The notes beneath the pieces were generated by a model. It was not told the origin of the DNA. It did not search any database and saw only the letters and a program-made list of their open reading frames with translations. Source: Tubulanus polymorphus (Eukaryota; Nemertea; Palaeonemertea; Tubulaniformes; Tubulanidae). Taken from it: 64,000 bases of DNA. Below are positions 44,202 through 59,330 of the stretch, piece by piece (position 1 is the first letter of the stretch; the number at the start of each line of letters is the position of its first letter). The position numbers and the translations under genes were made by a program. Location: the NCBI RefSeq assembly GCF_964204645.1, contig NC_134029.1:22710450-22774449 (forward strand), written 5' to 3'.

Positions 44202-46932
44202 TTATTTTTTGCCTCCCTTTCCCTTCTTGGTTGGCTCTGCCTTCTTCGCCGTCTTTCCCTTCTTGGCTGCCCTTTTGGCGGCAGCACTTTTCTTCTTTGG
44301 GGGTTTTTCAGTTGGAGCGGCCTGAAAATATTCCAGAAATCATTATTAATGTTAATTCAACATCGGCCTCACGATTGGACCCAACTCATTTAGGCTTATC
44401 CACTTTTCCCAGATTCCCTGAGTTGCTGCGTTATTATAACGTCAAACTTGTAACACAAAATTCCACGAATGAATCTGCCATGGATTAATGCAGAAATTTC
44501 TTGGTTCAAAATATTCTATTTTTCATGTATAGCGCTTAAGAAGATGTGTCATCAACGAAAATAGCATATGTGAATTCCCCAAGTTTATAGGTCCGCTCTA
44601 CCCTGACATTACATAATGATTTATTGACAATCAAAACTGTTAAATTATTATCGAATATGTGTCGGGCAGAATGAACATGACACTTACACCACGTTTCTTC
44701 ATGATCTCCAATTGTCTGTTCTTGCGTTGTCGTTCCTGAGCGAGAATCGCGTGTCGTTTCTGAACAGACGCGTACGGATTCAATCTGATCATCGTTCTGA
44801 TGTTCTTCAACGGATTCTTCTTCAGAACCTTTCTCTGAACGCGAGACCTGAAATTGATCACGATACAAAATTAAATACAATTCACTTAATTAACATATTT
44901 TTCTCTTTCAACGTATTCCCCCTTACAGATCAGGGAATCCAAATATCTGATATTTCCTCAACCAACTAAAATACTGATTCACTCAAAAAATATGCCGAGC
45001 TGTTTTGTAAGAGGCTATCTGTGCAACGAGACACCAAATATTCATATTCCCTGCCAGAATCCTGATCCCTAAGGAATACCAAACTAATATCTTACTTTCT
45101 CGGTCGAAGGGCGCTCTTGATTTCGTCACTCTTCAACAATCGAGCCAAATCGCTGTTTGTCATTTTCGGCATCGGTAAGTTGTAGTCGGTCTTTTCCTTC
45201 GAGGGTGTTTTCCAGGTTCCGTAAAGCTTGTCGAGACGTTTAAAAGCGGACTCGGTCCAGATACAAAATCGTCCGACGTGACCACCGGGGGCAATTTTTA
45301 AAAGATTCAAACGATTGACATTGATTAAAGTAATACCTGAAAAAAAAAGAAGATGATTATATTTAATTTGAAATTCATCATCATTAGGTCAAAAATATAG
45401 ATAAGTTTAATCTTAACTAATTCATAAATTCCATCCCGACCTCTGGGTACACAAATATTGCTTAACAGCCTGGATGGAACCTTCATATAAACTGAGGTGA
45501 GGGAATAGATCTTATAACACATTCATCAGTATCATATTTTCTTGCACTAACCTGGGATATTACGGAAAGCTCGGCAGATTCCATTGTCCTGGTTATAGAT
45601 AACAAGAGGACCTCGTTTCTGGATGCGGCGACGATTCCTCATTTTACCTTTACCGGCACGGAATCGTTTCGATTTGTAAACCTTTTCGATATCGGCCCAC
45701 GCCTTGAAACTCTTCAGAACTTTTACGGCCTCTTTCGTTCGCTTGATTTCTTCGACTTTGTCGGCGATGACCAACGGAACTTCGGGAGTCTCTTCAATTC
45801 GGTGACCTATAACCAGACGAGGGAACACGCGATATAATATCAATTGGACATAGGAGTGAGTCCAGGGGGACTTAACTTGTACAAGTCCATCAAATTTGCC
45901 TAAGATCTATCCATCTATTAGTCCCATTGATAAGATTTCAATTTATTTTATTTGACCATACACCCTTGAAAATCATAACCCAAGTATGGGACAATTGGAT
46001 CCTGGGCCCATACTATTAATCCTACTGAAGTGAACTCAACAGTAAAATCAAACCAAGAACATTCAAACTCTGATGTCTAGACTCAATATGTTCAGATATA
46101 TACCTTTAGACATGACGAGAGCTGGGATACCAGTAGCAGCGATTGCCGAGCACATGGCGTATCTCCTCTGGTTGATGTTGATACGTCTGTGCCAGCGTCT
46201 GTAAGTCTTAGTTGGAGCGAACATACGTCCTCCTCGGCACATGTTACCGAACGCACCCTGACCAGAACGATGAGTACCACCACCTCGTACACGAGGAATA
46301 CGAGCTACAGCTCGTCCTGTACCCCATGACTCAGCAGATGTCTGGTGACCTATAAACAGAACATTCATCAATGTTTACAACAATTTTCACTTCTTCGACA
46401 ATAATAAAATTCTAAATATCATTACAGGTTACTTCTCAATTAATTTACAATCTTCTTACAGTTGATCTTATTTCATTGAGACATCATCTTGTTGACTTAC
46501 CGGCATCTTTGCTGACAGCGTATGGTTGTCTGGTGTTCTTCAACATTTGGAAATGAACGAAGTTGACGATATCCGGCCTGATCGGGGCTCGGAATACTGC
46601 CGGCAACATAATGTTACTGTCGGTAGCTTCATTTTTATCACTATACACCGATATCAATGGACGGGCAGCCTGAAATAGTAATTCAAGAAGGGGATGCTTA
46701 GTTATAAAGTGATGGTCGAACTTACTCAGGCGGCCCGGGCAGCAAGCAAGTGCCGCCTTTAACATCAACTCAAGCCGCGCCGCCGGACCAGAAAATAAAA
46801 TCGCACCAAAAACTACTCAAAATAAACGATGTCTCCATCAACCCATACATCAATCATTTACTCATCACACAATTAAACATTTCAACTAATTTATAAGAAT
46901 AATTACGAACTAATTAAGGCAGAAATTACCAT
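44202..46932 (-). CDS. RPL4: RPL4, large-subunit ribosomal protein uL4
   Basis: Seven coding exons: 46930-46932 (ATG alone), 46501-46669, 46104-46349, 45552-45806, 45096-45336, 44688-44847 and 44202-44321; 1194 bp, 397 residues (human 427). The product is a core protein of the 60S ribosome lining the exit tunnel. Signatures: [116 protein letters not shown]. The C-terminal tail is Lys/Ala-rich as in other animals. The first intron follows the start codon directly. A 12.3-kb transposon separates the codon-proximal 40 bp of leader from the probable start site at about 59345. Family assignment is certain. Confidence 0.97.
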
Positions 46933-46972
46933 TTTATTTGGAGAATTATTTTAGCGTGACCGCTTCTACACG
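46933..46972 (-). other. RPL4: RPL4 5' UTR, codon-proximal part
   Basis: Forty bases between the ATG and the target duplication of the inserted element. On the minus strand this continues in sequence sense from the pyrimidine-rich stretch at 59331-59350, with one TGTCCGACC copy between them. Confidence 0.7.
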
Positions 46973-46981
46973 TGTCCGACC
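46973..46981. other. Target-site duplication, left copy
   Basis: TGTCCGACC, identical to 59322-59330. Nine bases is the standard duplication length of Mutator-like elements. Confidence 0.93.
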
Positions 46982-47025
46982 GCAAAAGGTTGAAAGCCTG
47001 TTTTGGTCGATGGCTAGTGACGTCA
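46982..47025 (+). repeat. MULE terminal inverted repeat, left
   Basis: Forty-four bases matching the inverse of 59278-59321 at 43 positions. It ends in the palindrome TGACGTCA, a CRE-type site, present in both ends and possibly regulatory. Confidence 0.93.
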
Positions 47026-47144
47026 TCAAGATCGCCTTTTTGTTACTCCCACAGCTAAACAACTCACTTTTAACGGTTAACCGCTGAATTTGAATTTTCT
47101 GTCAAGTGTATTCTTGCTGGCTGTTGATTAAAAGATTGTGAATC

Positions 47145-50100
47145 ATGTTTTCCGAACGTGTTAAGCTTGTCTCCGGACCAGTTGGTGGGAATATTGGTTT
47201 GAAAAAAGAGGTAGATTGCAAGATTATAAAAAACTCACTGGGTAACACTGGTGAACGCCGCGAGGATCGTACACGGTGGTGCAGGCGAGGCGTCGCGACC
47301 GCGCGGCGGCAGGGCTTTTTAATTTTGGCTTTTGCCAGTTTTGGAGTCTTGTTATTGCCACCACGGCCACGTTACCACCACACTCACATTGTCGCTAGGC
47401 CTACTGTACTGCCACTACTTTACTTGCTTGCTACTTACTCGGCTAAATTAATTTGTCTTCATCCACGCTTACTTCCCCCCTCCCCCCCCCCATGTTAACA
47501 AGTAATTTCTGCCAACCGAACCACCAGTCGCAGTAGCCGTAGGCAGTATACTATAGTGCAGTAGTGGGTACCCAGTGGCATGCCATTGCCATGCCACTGG
47601 GTATAGGCCTATGTTGCCCGTACACAGTCACCACCTACTAATGTCTATTTATTAATTGATGAGACCTGTTTTTCTTGGATATTTTGCTTACTTTTTGGGG
47701 TACATACCTCATTTATGTCTTAACAGAATGCCAAAAATCGCGGACAACAACTGAATATCCGATATATTTCCAGTTCTGTACCATTTAGATGGATTGGCAA
47801 AAAGACTCCTTAAGTCCAGTTGAATGAGAGAGAAAATCCTCCATTTTGTGAAATTTCTTGAATTTTTACATTGTCACCATGCCTACGAAATTAAGTTATA
47901 TTTCTTGTGGGGTCTCAACAACTAAATCAGGGTGGCGTAGGCATGGTAACAATGTTCAAATCCAAGAAATTTGACAAAATGGAGGATTTTCTCTCTCATT
48001 CAACTGGACTTAAGGAGTCTTTTTGCCAATCCATCTAATTGGTACAGAACTGGAAATATATCGGATATTCAGTTGTTGTCCGCGATTTTTGGCATTCTGT
48101 TAAGACATAAATGAGGTATGTACCCAAAAAAGTAAGCAAAATATCCAAGAAAAACAGGTCTCATCAATTAATAAATAGACATTAGGCCTTAAATATTCCA
48201 ACAACCATTCCAAATCCAGCAACAAAAAATAAACAATAAATTTTAAGGCCTCGAAACAGAAGAATGGTAGTTCCCTGTATTCAGAGTCAATGAAAATGTA
48301 TTTCTTGTTGCAGATAGATAGCCTAACCAATTTCAGGATAAGTACTTTTCATTCCTTTATTTATATACGTAGCCTAACTGTTTAATCCTGGCCCTGGCCA
48401 CTGAGGGTGTATGCATTAGGTCTGGTCCCAGTTTCACTGAGCTAGTTAGCCAACAATTAAGCTGAGAAATTTTGTTAATTTGATTTAGAGGAATCTTTTA
48501 ATTTAGTGCCTGATGTTAGGCCTTCCACAGCCTGGTAGAGGTGGTTTAGGTGAACAAGTTAGTCTTCACACTGCAGGACTTTTAGGTGAAGGTGAAACTG
48601 GCCCTTGTTTATGCATAGGCTACTGTGTGTGCACGCTTATCTTTATGCTTATTCAATTAGAATACCCATGTAGCTACCAAATAAGCACCGCTTCAGAGGA
48701 TTTTAGAAATTTTCACTTCAATAACACTGTGTTCTATTTTTGGGCACTAGCTACTATTATGCACAATTTTTTCAATCAATTCTATCACATTGATATACAT
48801 ATATGTGTCACTTCTTTTGCATGTAGTAGGGTCTTACAGTAACCAGTGTGCTCTCTCACACCTCCCTGTGATATTGGCCTGAGACTGACAAATAATCTTT
48901 TTTGTAGCGTATTGGTCTCGTAGCAGACAGCATTTTAAAGTATGCTGGGCTAGATGGTGTAGGCTTATTTGAATGGACAAGGATCGTGTGCCCCGGAGGA
49001 ACCATTGAAACATTGATGGAAGGTAATTTCTCGGTTCAGTACTGATTTATATTGTTCATTTTCATTGGGTTACTGATTAGTTGTATATTACAGAATTGAA
49101 AAAGGTGAAGATGCTGAATGTGGAACAACTAATCGTCCATGTTGGAACAAATAATATGACGTGTGATGTCCCGCTTGAGATTGTTCTGCGAAGACACGTT
49201 GAATTAATTCGATTGTTGCTCTATAAATGTACTGGGACCATCATTGTACCAGCTCTTTTTCCTCGATGTGATGAGTAAGTATCAAGAATAGATTTTTCTT
49301 GAAGTACTATATTTATGATCGATGTAATGATTTTTAAATTTCTTTCTTTTTTAAAGTTTCGATGCTGACACAAAAATATTTCATTACAATGAAATGCTGC
49401 ACCGCGAATGCTTTACACTTGGTGTAAAGTTCGTTGATTTTCACTTCTCAAGAGATCTCCTTTCACCGTAAGTAATCGTTTAATTTTAATAAGCCCAGTA
49501 GGTTATGTGCATTTTTTCGCGATTTAAACTAACTTGTTTTTTTCTAAATTTTGTGATCTAGGACTGACTTGTTACACCCCAGCCGTAAGGGAAATCAGTT
49601 CATAAATAACAGGATAATGGAACTACTGCTATTGAAAAATGAAGATGAAATGTACGTAGAATTGCATTATTTTATCCAATTACCAGGTATGCAAACTACA
49701 TAAATTTTATGATTGTACTGGAAATAATGAATGATTCTTAATCAGGTGCCCTCAATACTTTCCATATGAGATTGAAAAGATGCAAAGAAGTAGAGCAGTC
49801 CATCGACGAAAGGTAATCATTTAGCATTGATATCCTAGAAAATGAATGATTTGCAATTAGTTTTTATAACTTGAATACGAAACCACTTTATTCAAAATCC
49901 TTGCATTGAATTAATGAATCATATTGATAGCTGATAGCAAAAAACAAATTGAAGGATGATCAAGCAAGAGCATGGGATGATTCAACAATAGTGGTAAAGT
50001 TGTTTTCCTAAGTGATTTGTACGTGATTTATCTTTATAAAGTTAGATATATTTTAACAGTTTTTTGTATCCTTCAATCCAGTATAGCAGTTTTGACGTTG

Positions 50101-53100
50101 CGCATCATACAAGGAAACAATTCTGTTGTGAAGATCAAAGAGCCTTTTTCACATTCGACCAGGTACATATCATCTCAAGAACTTATGATTTAATATTAGT
50201 TTGGTCACTTTTATTTCACAATTACCTAAAGGCTGTGCATGCACAAATCTGTCTTTTTTTTCCAGTACATGACTAAAATTGATGTGGCTGGTGTTGCTAT
50301 TTGTTTAAAGCCTCAATTATTTACTCCTTTTTATCAGACTAAGAACGTGAGTAATATGTTTCTCGAAATGAAATTATAGAAATTCATTGGTATTGGTATG
50401 ATTTATGCTGTAAAGCTTTGTTTTCATATTCAGGGATGCTACAATAGAAGTTGTCACAATACTAAAAGATTTAACAGAAAAAGGAAGTCAGTGGAACATG
50501 TAAGTTTGATGCCCTTTCTGCGAGACGCGGGTTCATTTTTGTTATTTTTGCTTAGATGTTGAAGCAAAAACAGATTAATGTGCTCTTCCACATTAGGTTA
50601 TTCATCCACAGACGGATCCTGCTGACTCGACATGTTTTTGCGGAGTTGAATTCACCAATTGGAAAGATCTTCTAGACCATGTTAGTTTAAACCATACTGA
50701 AATGTAAGTACAACATAATTCAATTAATTTAGTACCTACAAATCTAAATGACTTAATGCAAATGACTCAGAGATACCCATGTTTTATGTTAGGCCTATAT
50801 GGGTAATTTCATACTCTATCTATTCATATGTCTAAAAAAAGTGAGTTGATAATGTGTATTTCAGGCGGACAATGGAGGAAGAAGGAAAGGACGCGGCTTG
50901 TGACAATTTCTCGGAAGGAACGATAGAGGAAGCAGAAAAGATGCAGGAAGATAGTTTGAAAGAAAGGATAGAAAGATTAAAGATGCAGGAAGATAGCTGG
51001 ATGGAAAACAAAAAACAGCTAAGTATCACAGGTGGTGGAGGTATCGAACCAATCATAATTGATGATAGTGATGAGAATGATTCTGATGATGAACATGTAT
51101 GTAGAAGAAATTTTAGTTACAATCCAACAGAAATGTGCCTCAATGACTATCAGTTTTTGAAAATTCCTCCTGTTATGCCATCAAAGGTCACGTCATTCAG
51201 AATTTGTGACATGTCTAATTCATGTCATTTGGCTGATGATGCCCCCACTATGCCCCACAAAAATCAGTTGGAGGACATAAAAGCACAGATGCAGTCAAGG
51301 ATTGTCCGTGACCCTTCCATTAATATCCATGTGAGACTCGATACAGGCTGCTATTCTATTGATCAGATTAATAGGTTTCTTTTCTTACATTATGCTAAAA
51401 CCAAACAACAAGATCTTTTTGCCATGAATCTTTGGGTAAATAGTAAGCCTTTAAGCCCCACTGATTCAGTCGATTGGGAACAGATTCAAGCATTTTCAAA
51501 TATGCTCTTTTCCTTAAAACCCTCTCAACAATTTCCAGTTGGTAATAATAATAGCGTATCTGTATCAGAACTTCAGACGATGACTAATCAAAAATGGTTT
51601 GAAGGATCTGTGTTAAATGCTTTTGCATCTATGATAAATGAACAGTACTGTAATATTCATGCATTTATGATGCCACTTACATTTGATGCTAAGAAATATG
51701 TTTCAAATTTATATAAAAGATTCGGTCCTAATCCACTCATAAGTTGTGATAAACTAATTTTTTTCCTGCATGTTGGCACCCAAAACGATTTCGTATTTCT
51801 AAATTCTTATGGACATGTTGTTGCCAATCATTATGCACTAGCAGTTTTTTACCCAAAAAGTAACAAACTGTGTTATGCTGATACACTAGCATGGGATTGT
51901 CCAAGGGAATTTAAAAATCATTTAAGATCTGTTTTGAAAGGTTTGAATTGCCCTGATCCTGTTTATATCCACCTCCATGATCCTCATTTTGTTACTGAAA
52001 ATTCAGTGCATGTATGTAGTAATAATTGTACTAGTTATTACCCACTCCAATCATGTTCATCTGTCTGTGGCCCTGCTACATTAATTGGTGCTTGCATTGC
52101 AACCTATTATGAAAAGGATATTTCAAGTGTATTTTCATCTCCCAATGAATTATCTTATCTTAAGAACATTTCTAACTATTCTGATTTTGTTAGATTGATA
52201 TTGATTAATTGGCTTATGAAACATCTAATTGATATTACTCAACTCTTCTCAAAGTCATCTCAACCTACTGCTAATAGTACTACTTTCTCTAAGATATCAC
52301 GATTATCTCGCAGACAGAGACATAAACGATCAACTGAGTCAAATAATACACTAGCTAGTTCTGAATTAAAGATGTCAGACTCTTATATTGCCCCTAAAAA
52401 AAGCAAATCAGTCTTAACTACAGCCAAATCTAAATCTACACCAATTTTGAATAATGAATCAACACTTGAATCTACACCAATTTCGAATTATGAATCTGCA
52501 GCAATTTTGACTAATGAATCAACACCAATTTCGAATAGTGAATCTGCACCAATTTTGACTAATGAATCAACACCTGAATCAACACCAATTTCGAATAGTG
52601 AATCTGCACCAATTTTGACTAATGAATCTACACCAATTTCGAATAGTGAATCTGCACCAATTTTGACTATTAAATCTACACCTGAATCTACACCAATTTC
52701 GAATAATGAATCTACACCTGAATCTACATCCTCAATTTTGAATCTTCAATCCTCATTAACTCTAAATTCAGCTGAACCATTAACTTCCCATATTAATGGT
52801 TCTAAAACTACTATCTCCCATCGCATCAGGAGAGGAAAGCATTATCTTGAAGTTGCTTTTCATTCAACTGGCAGTAAGACGAAGTATAAAAGTTTTCATT
52901 GTACAGACCAAGGTACAAATGACCAGGTAGCCATTGACACTATCAAGAAATACCTCAACAACCAGAATCCACTTAGTGATGAATGGGTTGAAAATGGGGA
53001 AGTAATGACTGGTGCTGACACAAAATATTATTTCGATAGATTCACTTTTGATTTTACAAAAACAGTTCGTCTGCATAAGAATGTGCGGCCTTCATTTGTT

Positions 53101-56100
53101 GGTAACCAGACAACGATGAAAGCTTCCTTAACATTAAAAAAGAATTGGCAAACCCATAGATTAGATAATAAATTTGAATTTATTGAGCCAATTGTTGAGG
53201 ATACTTCTCAATTTGTGGCTGCAGAAATGCTCATAAAATGTTCGTCAAAGTCTTCAGTTTGTAAATCATCATGTGGATATTATCTTTCAAAGTTGAATAT
53301 GTCCAGTAACATCACTAATTGTCCCTCATGTCAAATTGACGTTGTTTTAAATGATAAACAATGTATTCATTGCTCCATTACCATGTCTAACAAATGGAGG
53401 AAAAATGCTGATGGTGAAACACTTTGTTCCAACTGTTACAACTATAAGCTGAAGAATAAACGTGATCGTCCTGTGAAGTTAAGGCAGCAGTTTGAGCCAA
53501 AAAAATTAATTCACCCTCATTTTATGTGTTATTGGGCAACGAAACTTGTATTATTTAGTACTGATTTATCCAAGTGGAGAATCTTCAGCAAACCACTTAA
53601 TGGTCAATATCATGACAATATTCCTTTACAAATTAAAAAGCGACCTAATTTATCTACTAGAGATAGATGGGATGAAAATAGAGTCATGATGAAAGCCACA
53701 GCAATGAAGGTTCTTTCTGCCACCAATGCTCACAATAACCTTCATGTATCAAATGTAAATGATGGCGCCGGTCATGACCATACCCTAGATCAAATTTCAA
53801 ATAGATTGAAATATATTGATAAATCTTCGATAAAATTACATATGAAATCTCAAGACGAAATACCTATTCTAAGTTCTGATTGGAGAAATACTGAAAAATT
53901 ATTAGAGGGTAACTATGAATCTGTCCTTTTATTTCAACGAGGGGATGCCACACTCAAACGTAATTATCACATTATTCTCTCTGATCCTCGTTCTCTGGAA
54001 CATTTATCCAACTTTGGACAATCTGTCATTGGTATTGACGTGAAACATGATTTCAATTCGTGGAAATTCAAAACTTCATTTGTAACTTTTGCAGACAACA
54101 AAAATGAAGGACGTATTGCTGCTGCATCAATTAGTAGTGATGAAGGGGGGCTACTCATGCAACTACCATCCAGTTAGTTCTAGCCAATACACCATGTAAA
54201 GACGAAAAATGTAATCATCCATCTGAATTCTATATATTTAATGATGGCAATGGTTTTTTCAGAATCAAGCCATGTTCATCAACATCTAGATTTTGTCCTT
54301 TTGTACAACATGATAAAGATGCAAGTCTAAAGCAAGGAGCATCTGACAATAATCTTAAATCAGTACTATGTAATTTTCATGTCCTGCAGTGTATTCGTCG
54401 CTTCATGAATGAAAATCAAGAACTTCGCTTATTTTGCAAGCCTCTAGAAACTGGTTTCAAATGCATTATGAGATCATGGGATGCTTCCTCTAGAACTGAT
54501 ATAGCCAATTCATTTATTAGTTTTATTGAGAATGATATTTCTTTAGACCTTATGTCGCAAGATACAAAAACATTATTTATTGATTACCTAAAGAAGAATT
54601 GGTTTAATTCCCAAATTTGGTCTGATGCATTCAATGCTGAATCAATTTATCAGTCAGACCAATCTAACAGAAATAACCCTTTGCTATTAACTGATAATAT
54701 TACTGAGCGCAAATTCAAACAAATAGATGATGTCTACTTAAGTGGACACCTAAATAAACTGATATCATCTTTTGTACGATTACTGTTTGAAAATGTTTTT
54801 AATGATGAGATCAAAGCGACAAATATGAACAATCTCCAATTTAAGCAACTTGACCAACGAGTTAAGAATATACGTCACCTTGAAAAGATAGAAAAGTGTT
54901 GCAAAAGAGCCTTTGATTTATTACAGAATAATGAGATTTTAAAATATGATGAAGAAACTAATTGGTTTGTTGTGAAGAGTTCTTCACGAAAGAACTTAAA
55001 TAGGTTAGAAGATAATGATAATTTTTTCAATGGTGATACTCAATATACATTCAATCAGCTTGATGTTTTAGAAGAAAGATTCCCCGATAAAGTATCAATA
55101 TCCGAGGAACATTCATATGACATTTCAAAAAAATGCCGAAGGTACATAGGAAATTTAGATTCAATATCCAGTCGTATCTTATTCAATTACGTTATTACAA
55201 TCGTTCCTGAAAATTGTCTTTCATACGTAGATGGTAATTGCCATTTAATCAATTTGAAACTAGGTATATGTACTTGTGAAGCTTTTATAATGATTGGACA
55301 ACCATATTTTTGCAAACATCTTTTTGCCTGTTTTGCCCAAAAAAACAATATAACCACAACGAAGGCTTTAATTGATGCATATAAATTCCACATTGTGGAG
55401 CCTCTGCCAACTTACAATTTTACTCGACAAAATATTTCTGTTTCATCTACCCTCATTGATAAGTTAAAAGATCATTCCCACATTGCTAGCTCGAATGATA
55501 TCAATGCTGCTCGGAAAGGGCACATTCTAAGTATTTTACATAATGAAAGCCACTGTGGAATTAAGTTAATAAGCGGACGACCTGCCAAACGACAACCTCA
55601 CAATATGGCTCATAGGCGTGCTGAGGGTCCAATCAAGGACAATCAGGTTGCCATAAACCTTCCTGAACTTGAAGTGATAGACCCTTACTGCCCTAAGGTT
55701 ACAATGCCTAAAGATGCTGAGAATGCAAGACACGGAGGGCGAAAGATAATTAGACCTGCTAACAGAGGTGTATCCTTTTCTGCTATGGTTGAAAATGCTG
55801 CTATCAAACTAGGTAAAAAAGCTAAAATATCAGAAATTGAAACCATAGACTCCACTGATCCAGATCCTGGCAATGATATCGAATTTTCAGCAGATATTTT
55901 AAGTCAGAATAAATCATCCTTACCAAAAAAATCAAAAGATACCAAACCAAAAGATATTAAGTCAATACCAGTTGTTAAAAATGACTCGAAGTCTGTTTTA
56001 TTTGAAAAAAGTATTGTCTGTTCCTTTTGTATTAAAGACAAAATAAATCCTCCATATCTTTGTTCATGTCGCAGGGAACTAGATAGGCACATATCCACTT

Positions 56101-56600
56101 CTCATTCATCTTTGAAACCTATCTCATGTGCTATTTGTTGGGCAGATGGGGTTATTAATTCATATGCAAGTGAAACATTCCTTCAAAAGCACATTCGTAT
56201 TGAACATAATCATCATAAGAAAAAATCTATTGTAATCGATTATAATAATAGAGATGATTATCTCAACAGTTCTCCTATTACAGAAATCAATAATTCCAAT
56301 TCTGAAAAAGAATTAGAAATTCTTATAGATCAACCTGGAAATGCAGGCCTCCAAAACCTAGCAAAATTGAAACTAGATAATCTTTTGTCATCAAAAGTTG
56401 AAAAAACCCCTTCTCAGTTAGTTGCTGAAACCTGCCCTGTCTGCCACAAAAACTGCAATGCTAATCCTAAGAAAAAGTCCACATTCTCAATTGAATGTGA
56501 TAATTGCCATAGATGGTATCATTGGAAATGTGCTCCAATCAATGAGGCTCCTCCTGAACATATCAGGTGGTTTTGTTTTCATTGTGACCCGATTTCCTAA
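47145..56600 (+). CDS. MULE multidomain transposase: SGNH - C2H2 - Ulp1 protease - GATA finger - DDE - SWIM - PHD
   Basis: Exons: tentatively 47145-47210 (weak donor), then 48908-49022, 49094-49274, 49357-49467, 49562-49651, 49746-49812, 49931-49993, 50082-50162, 50266-50346, 50434-50499, 50597-50703 and 50865-56600; about 2250 residues. Exons 2-5 read as an SGNH hydrolase: LVADSIL (Ser block), CPGGTI (Gly), HVGTNN (Asn) and DLLHPS (Asp/His). A C2H2-like finger (CFCGVEF, then LDHVSLNH) ends exon 11. In the large exon: Ulp1/C48-like protease (NHYALAVFYP, YADTLAW, QSCSSVCGPATL; about 51750-52110), a Ser/Thr/Pro repeat (52437-52735), a GATA-type finger (CIHCS, KWRKNADGETLCSNC; 53362-53475), the transposase start (IGIDVKHDF at 54031; HDKDASLKQG then CNFHVLQC), SWIM (CTCEAF, FCKHLFAC), two finger-like segments and a C-terminal PHD finger (56432-56590). 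The frame breaks once at the G tract 54145-54150. Confidence 0.8.
47571..47601. repeat. Short hairpin
   Basis: CCCAGTGGCATG and its inverse CATGCCACTGGG separated by seven bases, close upstream of the large hairpin. Confidence 0.8.
47639..48184. repeat. Long hairpin with 249-bp arms
   Basis: Left arm 47639-47887 and right arm 47936-48184 are near-perfect reverse complements, from TAATGTCTATTTATTAATTG to CCATGCCTACG, with a 48-bp loop. It lies in the putative first intron of the MULE gene. A transcript through it would form an almost uninterrupted duplex of about 250 bp. Confidence 0.95.
52437..52735 (+). repeat. In-frame tandem repeat in the MULE gene
   Basis: Units of 36-60 bp encode variants of STPISNSESAPILTNE, repeated about six to eight times with no frame loss. 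It forms a disordered Ser/Thr/Pro linker between the protease and GATA-finger regions. Confidence 0.9.
54145..54150 (+). other. Frame break in the MULE gene (G6 tract)
   Basis: Upstream frame stops at 54175-54177. The +2-related frame downstream is open from before the tract to the stop at 56598-56600 and continues the transposase domain without loss of similarity pattern. One missing base in a run of six G accounts for the break. Assembly error, inactivating mutation or ribosomal slippage are possible. Confidence 0.85.
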
Positions 56601-57364
56601 ATAGTTTGTATAGAATATTATTGATCGGGTTTCGAATGAATTCCTGACGTTAGAAATATTTTCATTTCCCATGGTGAACGTAGAAGCCTATAATGACCGT
56701 CACTTAGTCACCTATATATTTACTCGATTATATATAAGGTTAAGAAGCGATGTATATGCACTGGTGTTTATAGTGCTCTATTTCAGGTTTTTTCTTTCAG
56801 GAAAATATATTTTGTGAATAGATTACCGCTTGATTTTTTATGTTACAGGTTACTGCAAAATCATCAGTTATTGTGATGCGTGCCGATGTCTCTGGATGAT
56901 TCTGACCATGTCTAGAACTTCAACATCCTTGACTTATCATCAATTGGCAGCAGTATACATACATGCATGTTCAGAGAGTGTATGAAGAGAGTGTATGGAC
57001 ACATCAACCTCGGTTCAAGGCTGTCCCTGATTAAATTGTATAATCCATATATAATATATATAGATTGGTCCCATTTTAACTTACTCAACTGCTTGAATGT
57101 CTTGTTTGTTATTCGTAAATTTTCACTTATTCATTGATTGTTTCTGTAGAATTTTATATGTGATATATAAACGTGGAAACCAGGGCCCATTGCACTATGA
57201 AAGACACTTGACATTTTTTTGGGACAGATCTTTCTATATGTTTATGTCCTCGAGGCATCTGAAGTTAAGAAAATTCCCTTTGAAAACTGGAAATGACATA
57301 ATGAAATAAGTTGTGGAATGTTTACAAATGACAAAATGAATGAATTTTGCATTCCTAAGGCCCT

Positions 57365-58240
57365 ATATATTTACTGCAGTTAGTCCTGTATGTCTTTTTT
57401 ATCGCAATTTACTGTGGTTTATTCCTGTTTGTCCTGTATGTCTTTGTGATCGCGATCGCAATTCATTGGTTGCATTGTTTACTGTTAGTCCTGTATGTCT
57501 ATCGCAATTAAGTTAGTCCTGTATGTCCTGTATGTCTTAGTTAATCGCAATTCATTGGTTGTTGAATTGTCTACTGTTAGTCCTGTATGTCCTGTGGTTT
57601 AGTCCTGTATGTCTTAGTTAATCGCAATTCGTTGGTTGAATTGTCTACTGTTAATCCTGTATGTCCTGTATGTCTATCGCAATTAAGTTAGTCCTGTATT
57701 TCTTAAATAATCGCAATTCATTGGTTAATGAATTGTCTACTGTTAGTCCTGTATGTCCTGTGGTTTTGTCCTGTATGTCTTTGTGATCGCGATCGCAATT
57801 CATTGGTTGCATTGTTTACTATTAGTCCTGTATGTCTATCGCAATTAAGTTAGTCCTGTATGTCCTGTATGTCTTAGTTAATCGCAATTCATTGGTTGTT
57901 GAATTGTCTACTGTTAGTCCTGTATGTCCTGTGGTTTAGTCCTGTATGTCTTAGTTAATCGCAATTCGTTGGTTGAATTGTCTACTGTTAATCCTGTATG
58001 TCCTGTATGTCTATCGCAATTAAGTTAGTCCTGTTTGTCCTGTATGTCTTAGCTACGAGCAATTATCAAACTTGATAATTGCTCGTAGGTCTTAGTTAAT
58101 CGCAATTCATTGGTTGCATGGTTTACTGTTAAAGCTGTATGTTCTGTATCTCTATCGCAATTTCATTGGTTGCATTGTTTACTGTTAAAGCTGTATGTTC
58201 TGTATCTCTATCGCAATTTCATTGGTTGAATTGTTAACAG
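57365..58240. repeat. Higher-order minisatellite
   Basis: Basic phrases TTAGTCCTGTATGTCT, TATCGCAATTAAG, TTAATCGCAATTCATTGG and GAATTGTCTACTG are arranged in a longer block that repeats with a period of about 339 bp (the phrase GTGATCGCGATCGCAATTCA is at about 57448 and 57787). It lies between the MULE gene and the right end of the element. Confidence 0.9.
58053..58088. repeat. 17-bp-arm hairpin inside the minisatellite
   Basis: CTACGAGCAATTATCAA and its exact inverse separated by two bases. It interrupts the array once and is not part of the repeat unit. Confidence 0.93.
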
Positions 58241-58385
58241 TCCTCTGTATGTACATGTAAAAATAATTAAGGTTCTGACAACAGGTTTGTAAAGTAATCA
58301 GCTATCTGTTTTGTCTATCGTTGCTTAAATTGTTAACTGTTGTTTTAGAGTTCTGTATGTCTTTGTCGATCATTTTGTCTGCACT

Positions 58386-58618
58386 CAGGGGCGGATCCAG
58401 CATTTTGAAGGCAAATGAAAGCAACAACAGATGGCTGTAAGCCATTCCAGAGCAAGCACCGATAACGCGAAGACCCTCCCTAAAAATTTTTTGGAAAAAT
58501 AGATGCAAGCAGGTGCATTCTGAGCATTACTTAATAGAAAGATTTCATTCGGTTTTTACTCAGTAACGCATAGATTTGCGGCTACATCGGTAAAAATAGA
58601 GGGGTGGAACCGCCACTG
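58386..58618. mobile_element. hAT-like MITE nested in the MULE
   Basis: About 233 bp with ends CAGGGGCGGATCCA and (inverse) TGGAACCGCCACTG, the type of end typical of small non-autonomous hAT elements. The flanks give no clear 8-bp duplication. Confidence 0.6.
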
Positions 58619-59277
58619 AATAGCTATTGTTTTGTGTAGGATTGTATCTGTGAATTAAGTAAAGTTACTTACTCCAGTCTGATGTTATTGCTTATTGCTC
58701 GTATTTTATTGTTTTAAGTGTGCGAATACTTTTCTTAGATTTATGGAGATCAGGATGACGAGGGTTCGATTTGAACCAACAAATAAACAAAAACATTCAA
58801 ACCTCAAATTAATCCGTTTACTTGTCTTTATTTTTGGGGAACATTTTTTTACCTAGTTCAGATTTGATAACACAGTAGTCGCTTGTTCCAAAGCGATGTG
58901 CCGTTGAAGACAGACATGAAGGTCTTTGCCGACAGCGATGCTATCCAGGATTTCAAAGGATGTGAAGAAGGTGCATCTTCGACAACCATAGTTTGCAGTT
59001 TTAACAATTTAAAACAATAATAGTTTCATTAAACAACTTAAAATTTAAAGATTTAGTGGACTTACTGTTTAACCAGGGCAGGGATTTCTCGCAACCGTAC
59101 ATGATATATACATACACTAGCAGTAAATACAATGTACTTCTAACCCTTATAAAACTTAAACTATTTTTAGTTATTTTACAATTATTAAACGGCAACGTTG
59201 AAATGCGATGTGCGCTCAGAGCGGCCGTAGTGATTTTGGCGTATTGTGGGATTCGAACCGCTCGGAATTTGTACTAG

Positions 59278-59321
59278 TGACGTCACTCGCCATCGACCAA
59301 AACAGGCTTTCAACCTTTTGC
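59278..59321 (-). repeat. MULE terminal inverted repeat, right
   Basis: Inverse of 46982-47025 with one mismatch (C for A on the plus strand within the segment). Followed directly by the second TGTCCGACC. Confidence 0.93.
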
Positions 59322-59330
59322 TGTCCGACC
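59322..59330. other. Target-site duplication, right copy
   Basis: TGTCCGACC, identical to 46973-46981. Confidence 0.93.

Follow-up and report, generated by a model that had tools for sequence, protein, structure and literature searches.

Introduction

In the passages of PMC6446971 that deal with them, Rehavkus elements serve as the outgroup of the Mutator-like elements (MULEs) and are described with a 9-bp target-site duplication (TSD), terminal inverted repeats (TIRs) of 26-400 bp, one open reading frame (ORF), a PHD finger and, ahead of the 3' TIR, a minisatellite; their hosts are given as arthropods and annelids. A Tribolium Rehavkus element is described, in part of PMC10218199, as carrying tandem satellites within its inverted ends. 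As for animal Mutator elements, passages of PMC2836005 report Ulp1 in those of hydra and lancelet; in the legend of one of its figures, Ginger1 and Mutator transposases are aligned over their Ulp1 and PHD domains. Here, we analyse a 64,000-nucleotide stretch of the genome of Tubulanus polymorphus, a marine ribbon worm of the palaeonemerteans (contig NC_134029.1; hereafter the window, C5:22710450-22774449 of a 268-Mb genome). It holds a transposon whose predicted single gene joins an SGNH hydrolase domain to a transposase with Ulp1-like, GATA, SWIM and PHD parts.

Esterase and PHD domains reportedly occur together in CR1 elements, going by the title of a 2003 paper by Kapitonov and Jurka, and a paper on DIRS-like and Ngaro-like elements (PMC9210276) is said to use the word SGNH. 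SGNH esterases are found in long interspersed nuclear elements (LINEs; CR1/RTEX) and in Penelope-like elements, with the ORF1 protein of ZfL2-1 represented by PDB 4c1b (from passages of PMC3905857), as well as in long terminal repeat (LTR) and Athena elements of bdelloids (part of PMC5408684). Intron-bearing SGNH genes, texim, are borne by fish Helitrons (part of PMC4021074). Lastly, Zisupton/KDZ elements have a DDE transposase and an 8-bp TSD and are associated with accessory enzymes, which are TET/JBP in fungi (part of PMC12730594).

Results

The transposon and its copies

We consider it probable that the window holds a transposon of the MULE/Rehavkus group with a single 12-exon gene, predicted to encode a multi-domain protein of 2,254 amino acids (aa) in intact sister copies. 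An earlier sequence-only reading of this locus had proposed a Mutator-like transposase gene with SGNH, Ulp1, GATA, SWIM and PHD parts. Separate domain tests support these parts, that for SWIM being its motif, and the multi-domain transposase gene is confirmed, with the named domains present in the order proposed, near 47145-56600. These coordinates hold for the gene but not for the whole unit, which is larger: the transposon spans 46982-59321 (12,340 bp), with TIRs and a 9-bp TSD, and the gene sits inside it. The transposon ends, the TSD, a frame break, extra C2H2-like fingers, a 3' minisatellite and the likeness to Rehavkus go beyond that reading. In window positions, the ends and the repeat between gene and 3' TIR are as follows.

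46973-46981, unstranded: left TSD copy, 9 bp, TGTCCGACC
46982-47025, plus strand: left TIR, 44 bp; many genome-wide matches of the 5' end start at or near it
57384-58235, unstranded: minisatellite with periods of 74, 166 and 56, between the gene and the 3' TIR
59278-59321, minus strand: right TIR, 44 bp
59322-59330, unstranded: right TSD copy, 9 bp, TGTCCGACC

The two TIRs are identical at 43 of 44 positions, with a single mismatch, and the word TGTCCGACC stands directly outside both as a perfect target duplication. The minisatellite array ends about 1 kb short of the right TIR. Genome-wide, the 5' end of the element has at least 41 matches, of which at least 32 are 119 bp or longer (94-100% identity), and the 3' end at least 40, of which at least 32 are 116 bp or longer (95-100% identity); the window is included in these counts, which are lower bounds. 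Perfect 9-bp TSDs, every word different, flank 10 of the 12 copies examined at both ends, window included, and 20 different target words were found at 20 5' flanks. Six sister copies are 99.76-99.88% identical to the window copy over 8.0-9.9 kb, and a seventh (L043) is 98.8% identical. A deletion derivative gives the same hit scores at four loci; at all three that could be tested at both ends, it is flanked by perfect 9-bp TSDs at different sites, a pattern that points to a defective copy mobilised in trans by the transposase of another copy. Taken as a whole, the best explanation, and in our judgement a likely one, is a young, multi-copy and recently mobile family of cut-and-paste DNA transposons of the MULE/Rehavkus group.

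The 9-bp target words at 20 insertion sites (L009-L028) show a weak bias, with G/C at both ends, T at positions 2-3 and A at positions 5-7. The window copy lies just 5' of the gene for uL4 (ribosomal protein L4), on the minus strand at 45500-46980; this gene was called from PF00573, with one of the two scanned pieces below the cut-off.

Gene structure

The 12 exons join in frame up to a break in the window copy, and all 11 introns are GT-AG. The exons, domains and motifs of the gene are listed below.

47145-47210, plus strand: exon 1 with the start codon, the same in the four intact copies tried
48908-49022, 49094-49274, 49357-49467 and 49562-49651, plus strand: exons 2-5, SGNH/GDSL hydrolase (48908-49651) with the blocks VADSIL, PGGTI, HVGTNN and DLLHPS
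49746-49812, 49931-49993 and 50082-50162, plus strand: exons 6-8, linker
50266-50346 and 50434-50499, plus strand: exons 9-10, linker
50597-50703, plus strand: exon 11, C2H2-like finger CFC..H..H
50865-56600, plus strand: exon 12, coding for the Ulp1 part, Cys ribbon and GATA finger, MULE core, SWIM finger, two C2H2-like fingers and PHD finger
51238-52260, plus strand: Ulp1/C48-like cysteine protease, with the His motif at 51826-51849, Asp at 51871-51894 and Gln/Cys at 52042-52071
52433-52718, plus strand: in-frame tandem repeat with periods of 24, 48, 60 and 108, a low-complexity linker
53233-53463, plus strand: Cys-rich ribbon (53233-53331), then GATA-type finger CX2CX17CX2C (53362-53436)
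54031-54054, plus strand: MULE core, first catalytic Asp, in GIDVKHDF
54144-54177, plus strand: frame break of the window copy, where the two large open frames overlap
54306-54713, plus strand: MULE core, second Asp in QHDKD (54306-54320), LCNFH (54366-54380) and NITERK (54696-54713)
55269-55319, plus strand: SWIM finger CxC...CKH, from its motif
56019-56105 and 56127-56207, plus strand: two C2H2-like fingers, read from the sequence and aligned in a paralog
56433-56585, plus strand: PHD finger, C4HC3

Exon 12 of the window copy is interrupted near 54150, inside the transposase core, which leaves unconnected frames of 1,110 and 818 aa; this copy would therefore need the transposase of another copy to move. 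The same 818-aa frame is present at two other loci, and seven other copies have an unbroken exon-12 frame of 1,918 aa. Four intact copies were tried, each with an unbroken exon 12 and all of its exons within a single locus; in every one the spliced product runs to 2,254 aa without internal stop, with 0-6 differences per pair. One sister copy encodes an exon-12 protein that matches an annotated Tubulanus polymorphus protein at NCBI with 100% identity (rounded). From the reading frame and the splice sites, we infer a single mRNA with all exons. The domain order predicted for its product is SGNH, C2H2-like finger, Ulp1-like protease, GATA, MULE DDE core, SWIM, two C2H2-like fingers and PHD.

Intron 1 of the window copy contains a near-perfect palindrome at 47638-48185, with 250-nt arms that are 97% identical. 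It is carried by 4 of the 10 other copies that span the site and is cleanly missing from the other six; it is probably a fold-back insertion within a subfamily. About 292 bp of the same intron, present in all 10 other spanning copies, are missing from the window copy at 48476.

The SGNH domain

The SGNH exons match PF13472 with E 1.1e-7 and 32.9 bits, which equals the cut-off of that family. With pieces joined by eye, a diverged lineage (L056) scores above it at 36.5 bits and the paralog below it at 29.1 bits (E 1.6e-6). The catalytic Ser, Gly, Asn and Asp-His residues are invariant in the three lineages. Against the PDB, a profile of these lineages matched a putative platelet-activating factor (PAF) protein (2.4e-5), the ZfL2-1 LINE ORF1 esterase (5.9e-5) and a PAF-acetylhydrolase (4.2e-4); the five matches at E <= 1 are three PAF-acetylhydrolases, one of them putative, the LINE ORF1 protein and a lipase/acylhydrolase (E 0.91). 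The sequence-only reading had hinted at an activity of this domain on RNA or DNA ends, which finds no support, the nearest solved relatives being PAF-acetylhydrolase and the LINE ORF1 esterase.

The ratio of nonsynonymous to synonymous substitution rates (dN/dS) of the SGNH domain is 0.15 in copy L054 (p 7e-4; 9 synonymous and 5 other substitutions) and 0.39 in L055 (p 0.03; 9 synonymous and 13 other substitutions). The exon-12 ratio of L055 was not used, its alignment being mostly gapped (586 gap codons). The domain looks like an inherited, constrained part of the system rather than a stray passenger, since it lies upstream of Ulp1 at diverged loci and its dN/dS is low.

Protease, zinc fingers and transposase core

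Single-sequence searches with Pfam, NCBIfam and phmmer gave no matches for the MULE and Ulp1 parts, and profiles were used instead. A five-row profile of the Ulp1 region has yeast Ulp1 as its best PDB match (E 1.6e-5) and also finds SENP2. Of its 21 matches at E <= 10, 19 are Ulp1/SENP or related bacterial thiol proteases and deubiquitinases, the other two being iodotyrosine deiodinases (E 6-7). The His, Asp, Gln and Cys residues are invariant in the five aligned rows, with spacings of 17 and 6 residues that are also those of Ulp1. Together with the invariant SGNH residues, they bear out the earlier proposal of intact catalytic residues in both enzymes. As for the GATA finger, its best PDB match is GATA-1 (E 4.3e-11), and all 10 matches at E <= 0.01 are GATA factors; its Pfam score of 18.5 is under the cut-off of 26.8.

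Aligned by hhalign with PF10551-type proteins of the same genome, the transposase core gave E 8.7e-5 with a score of 42.2, whereas 30 column shuffles gave 20.4 at most, and in this alignment its first two Asp residues and C..H motif are in register with those of known MULEs. The Glu of TERK, in NITERK, is invariant in alignments A1 and A2, by motif only, as the profile alignment ends before it. A narrower MULE set gave E 0.031 versus 0.33 for a reversed control, and E improved when L052, a simpler locus of the same genome, was added. With L052 alone, only the SWIM end aligned (E 0.0032), and the frame of another locus (L008) gave nothing (E 0.43). The Pfam family nearest to the core is PF21056 (ZSWIM1-3 RNaseH-like), at E 0.042-0.045 in two Patella homologues, below the cut-off. 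The missing PF10551 match is a detection limit of the library and not a defining feature of MULEs. Of the features that characterise MULEs, these are present: a TSD within 8-11 bp (9 bp here), TIRs, and two Asp residues and a C..H motif that align to known MULEs.

The SWIM motif CxC...CKH is invariant in alignments A1 and A2. The PHD finger matches PF00628 (E 1.5e-5, 25.3 bits against a cut-off of 24), and its nearest PDB match is TAF3 (E 3.3e-9), a reader of H3K4me3. Segment by segment, the profile searches by which the sequence-only reading was to be judged find SGNH and PHD in Pfam; they give no Pfam match for C48, MULE or SWIM, and GATA falls below its cut-off. For the two domains whose failure would have counted against that reading, SGNH stands at the PF13472 cut-off and GATA on the GATA-1 match in the PDB. 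Below-cut-off matches to GIY-YIG, Corona_NS1, Defensin, DUF, F-box, GSAP-16 and DOT1 were judged to be due to chance.

Paralog and diverged lineages

A paralog at C6:15723173-15728515, 44% identical, has the same exon-12 domain order, with an SGNH domain with all blocks upstream of exon 12. No convincing TIR was found in it by BLAST of its 5' against its 3' parts. About 220 bp 3' of its gene lies a tandem array of 28 x 74 bp (L051:2365-4456), whose units are, as far as visible, unrelated to the window minisatellite; no minisatellite is shown in L053, another SGNH-bearing lineage.

Four further distant SGNH loci were found at E <= 1, on C7, C4, C10 and C1, the last of them weak (E 0.69). Each of the four is followed on its own strand, 2-14 kb downstream, by distant matches to the Ulp1 region, a proximity expected by chance at about 4e-4 per locus according to a simple count. 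MULE-core matches follow downstream at C4 and C10, and none is among the matches listed at C7 and C1. With the paralog included, this makes five diverged loci, one weak, where SGNH precedes Ulp1-region matches. The C7 locus (L056, C7:9328900-9335200) has SGNH exon boundaries in common with the element; its SGNH domain is 61% identical and its Ulp1 region 32%, and exons 6, 9 and 11, which lie between the two, match above shuffles. Its Ulp1 region is doubled in tandem, with a stop in one copy.

Outside this genome, exon-12 homologues with 32-33% identity are present in Patella caerulea. In a tree of the MULE core, the SGNH-bearing L053, which fills 44% of the columns, groups with the Patella proteins with support of 80/87, below the threshold for a firm branch. 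This grouping suggests that the association between SGNH domain and transposase may be old. A wider protein search with alignment A2 found nothing beyond the annotated proteins P0001-P0003.

Discussion

In the proposed working of the element, one mRNA would carry all parts. The DDE core would excise the element and reinsert it at 9-bp staggered cuts, and the SWIM, GATA and C2H2 fingers may bind the element ends. The Ulp1 part might strip the transposase or host repair factors of SUMO or a similar modifier, and the PHD finger might read histone tails and thereby bias insertion. The SGNH part may have an acylated or lipid ligand that it binds or hydrolyses, and so aid localisation or assembly. 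The functions given to the Ulp1, SGNH and PHD parts are drawn by analogy from their relatives. A bolder proposal, which we put forward tentatively and would sooner doubt than defend, is that the SGNH enzyme does a job within the polyprotein of a cut-and-paste transposase and has been passed down from a common ancestor of the nemertean and limpet lineages. On this reading it would define an old, undescribed spiralian clade beside MULE/Rehavkus, whose members use an esterase, a SUMO-type protease and a histone reader jointly in DNA transposition.

Several results weigh against these readings. No transcript joining the SGNH exons to the transposase was seen, and the annotated protein begins in exon 9. 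The TSD fails in 2 of the 12 copies, being shifted by one base in one of them; the other is a copy at a contig end, with six bases present that are mismatched. Promoter targeting has no support, since there is no CpG enrichment in 20 flanks relative to a background taken from the window only (flank GC is 0.41 versus 0.38 +/- 0.04). Pfam misses the MULE (PF10551), SWIM and Ulp1 parts of the window protein, and none of the five single Ulp1-region sequences matches C48. The Ulp1 part of exon 12 in the decayed copy L054 has a dN/dS of 0.70, weak support for constraint there. Exons 7, 8 and 10 do not rise above shuffles in L056. The annotated Patella proteins lack SGNH in the profile search, and the search with the SGNH part found no SGNH-bearing proteins of about 445-1,416 aa.

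Among the alternatives, the one that survives best, although we find it on the unlikely side, is that the element is simply a Rehavkus, some or all of whose extra domains are already in Repbase Rehavkus entries, with little left that is new. The 9-bp TSD, TIR length, single ORF, PHD finger and minisatellite all agree with what is described (PMC6446971), and the paralog likewise has its 28 x 74-bp array 3' of the gene; the words GATA, protease and Ulp, however, are absent from that paper's main text. The search with the exon-12 protein, which has limited sensitivity, also argues against it: none of its four matches is a named arthropod or annelid protein, P0004 being nameless.

It is rather improbable, in our view, that the locus makes two products, a transposase mRNA beginning near exon 9 and, from the SGNH exons, a transcript or gene of their own. 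In its favour, the annotated P0001 (isoform X2) begins in exon 9, and SGNH is missing from the annotated P0001-P0004, which the SGNH profile does not match (best P0004, E 2). However, all 11 junctions are in phase and GT-AG, exons 6, 9 and 11 are kept in L056, and the four intact copies tried have no stop from the SGNH domain to the end of exon 12.

As MULEs tend to acquire fragments of host genes, according to part of PMC6446971, SGNH might also be a captured passenger without function. We regard this as quite improbable: SGNH lies upstream of Ulp1-region matches at the five diverged loci, including the weak one, its catalytic residues are invariant in three of three lineages with dN/dS of 0.15 and 0.39, and in L056 it is better conserved than the Ulp1 region (61% versus 32%). 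That this multi-exon gene with an NCBI locus name is a host gene, a domesticated transposase, is scarcely credible and was rejected on copy structure, given the TIRs, TSDs, dozens of near-identical copies and deletion derivative.

Beyond its classification as a probable MULE/Rehavkus-group transposon, the element bears on what esterases do in mobile DNA. SGNH domains occur in retroelements (LINE, Penelope-like and some LTR elements) and next to a Helitron of fish, and the role proposed for them, in membrane binding or ribonucleoprotein assembly, comes from studies of an RNA-based element. Finding one under constraint in a DDE transposon raises the question of whether these esterases serve a purpose, apart from RNA packaging, that mobile elements share. 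Being young and still represented by intact copies, the family would allow the role of SGNH to be tested directly in transposition, and it provides an animal MULE-type system for studying the functions of the Ulp1 and PHD domains.

Comparison with known systems

Searches of open-licence papers, which did not extend to Repbase or most subscription journals, gave no title on an SGNH esterase in a DDE transposase. Among retroelements, the nearest case is the ORF1 protein of ZfL2-1, where an SGNH hydrolase with identical catalytic residues likewise sits inside the protein of a mobile element; there it belongs to a retroelement ORF1, whereas here it accompanies a DDE transposase. The texim genes and our element both combine an intron-bearing SGNH with a DNA transposon, but Helitrons are rolling-circle elements and their SGNH is a separate gene. 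Like Zisupton/KDZ, the element is a DDE transposon with accessory enzymes; its TSD is 9 bp and not 8 bp, and membership of KDZ was rejected for that reason.

Within the same genome, L052 (C5:13342500-13347800) has a region resembling Ulp1, which matches the paralog at E 2e-12 (tblastn), and after it PF10551 and SWIM. Unlike the window protein, it has a clear Pfam MULE match, and it is simpler, with no Pfam GATA or PHD in its two frames and no SGNH profile match below E 7. The element resembles the animal Mutator elements of hydra and lancelet in having a MULE-type transposase with Ulp1, and differs from them in its SGNH and GATA parts, which are not met in the passages of PMC2836005 that concern them, where these words were not searched for. 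The sequence-only reading held that Ulp1 and SWIM were known separately in Mutator-like transposases. This was too strong, because Ulp1 is reported in those hydra and lancelet elements, and Ulp1 and PHD are aligned there with Ginger1 (PMC2836005, in part).

The likeness to Rehavkus is clear, by features as described: the element has a 9-bp TSD, a 44-bp TIR, one gene, a PHD finger and a 3' minisatellite. Unlike Rehavkus as described in the relevant passages of PMC6446971, it has SGNH, Ulp1 and GATA domains, and its host is a nemertean, whereas the hosts given there are arthropods and annelids; the likeness is one of description only. Animal Mutator elements with Ulp1 and PHD had been described before; what is new here is the SGNH domain under constraint, along with the GATA finger.

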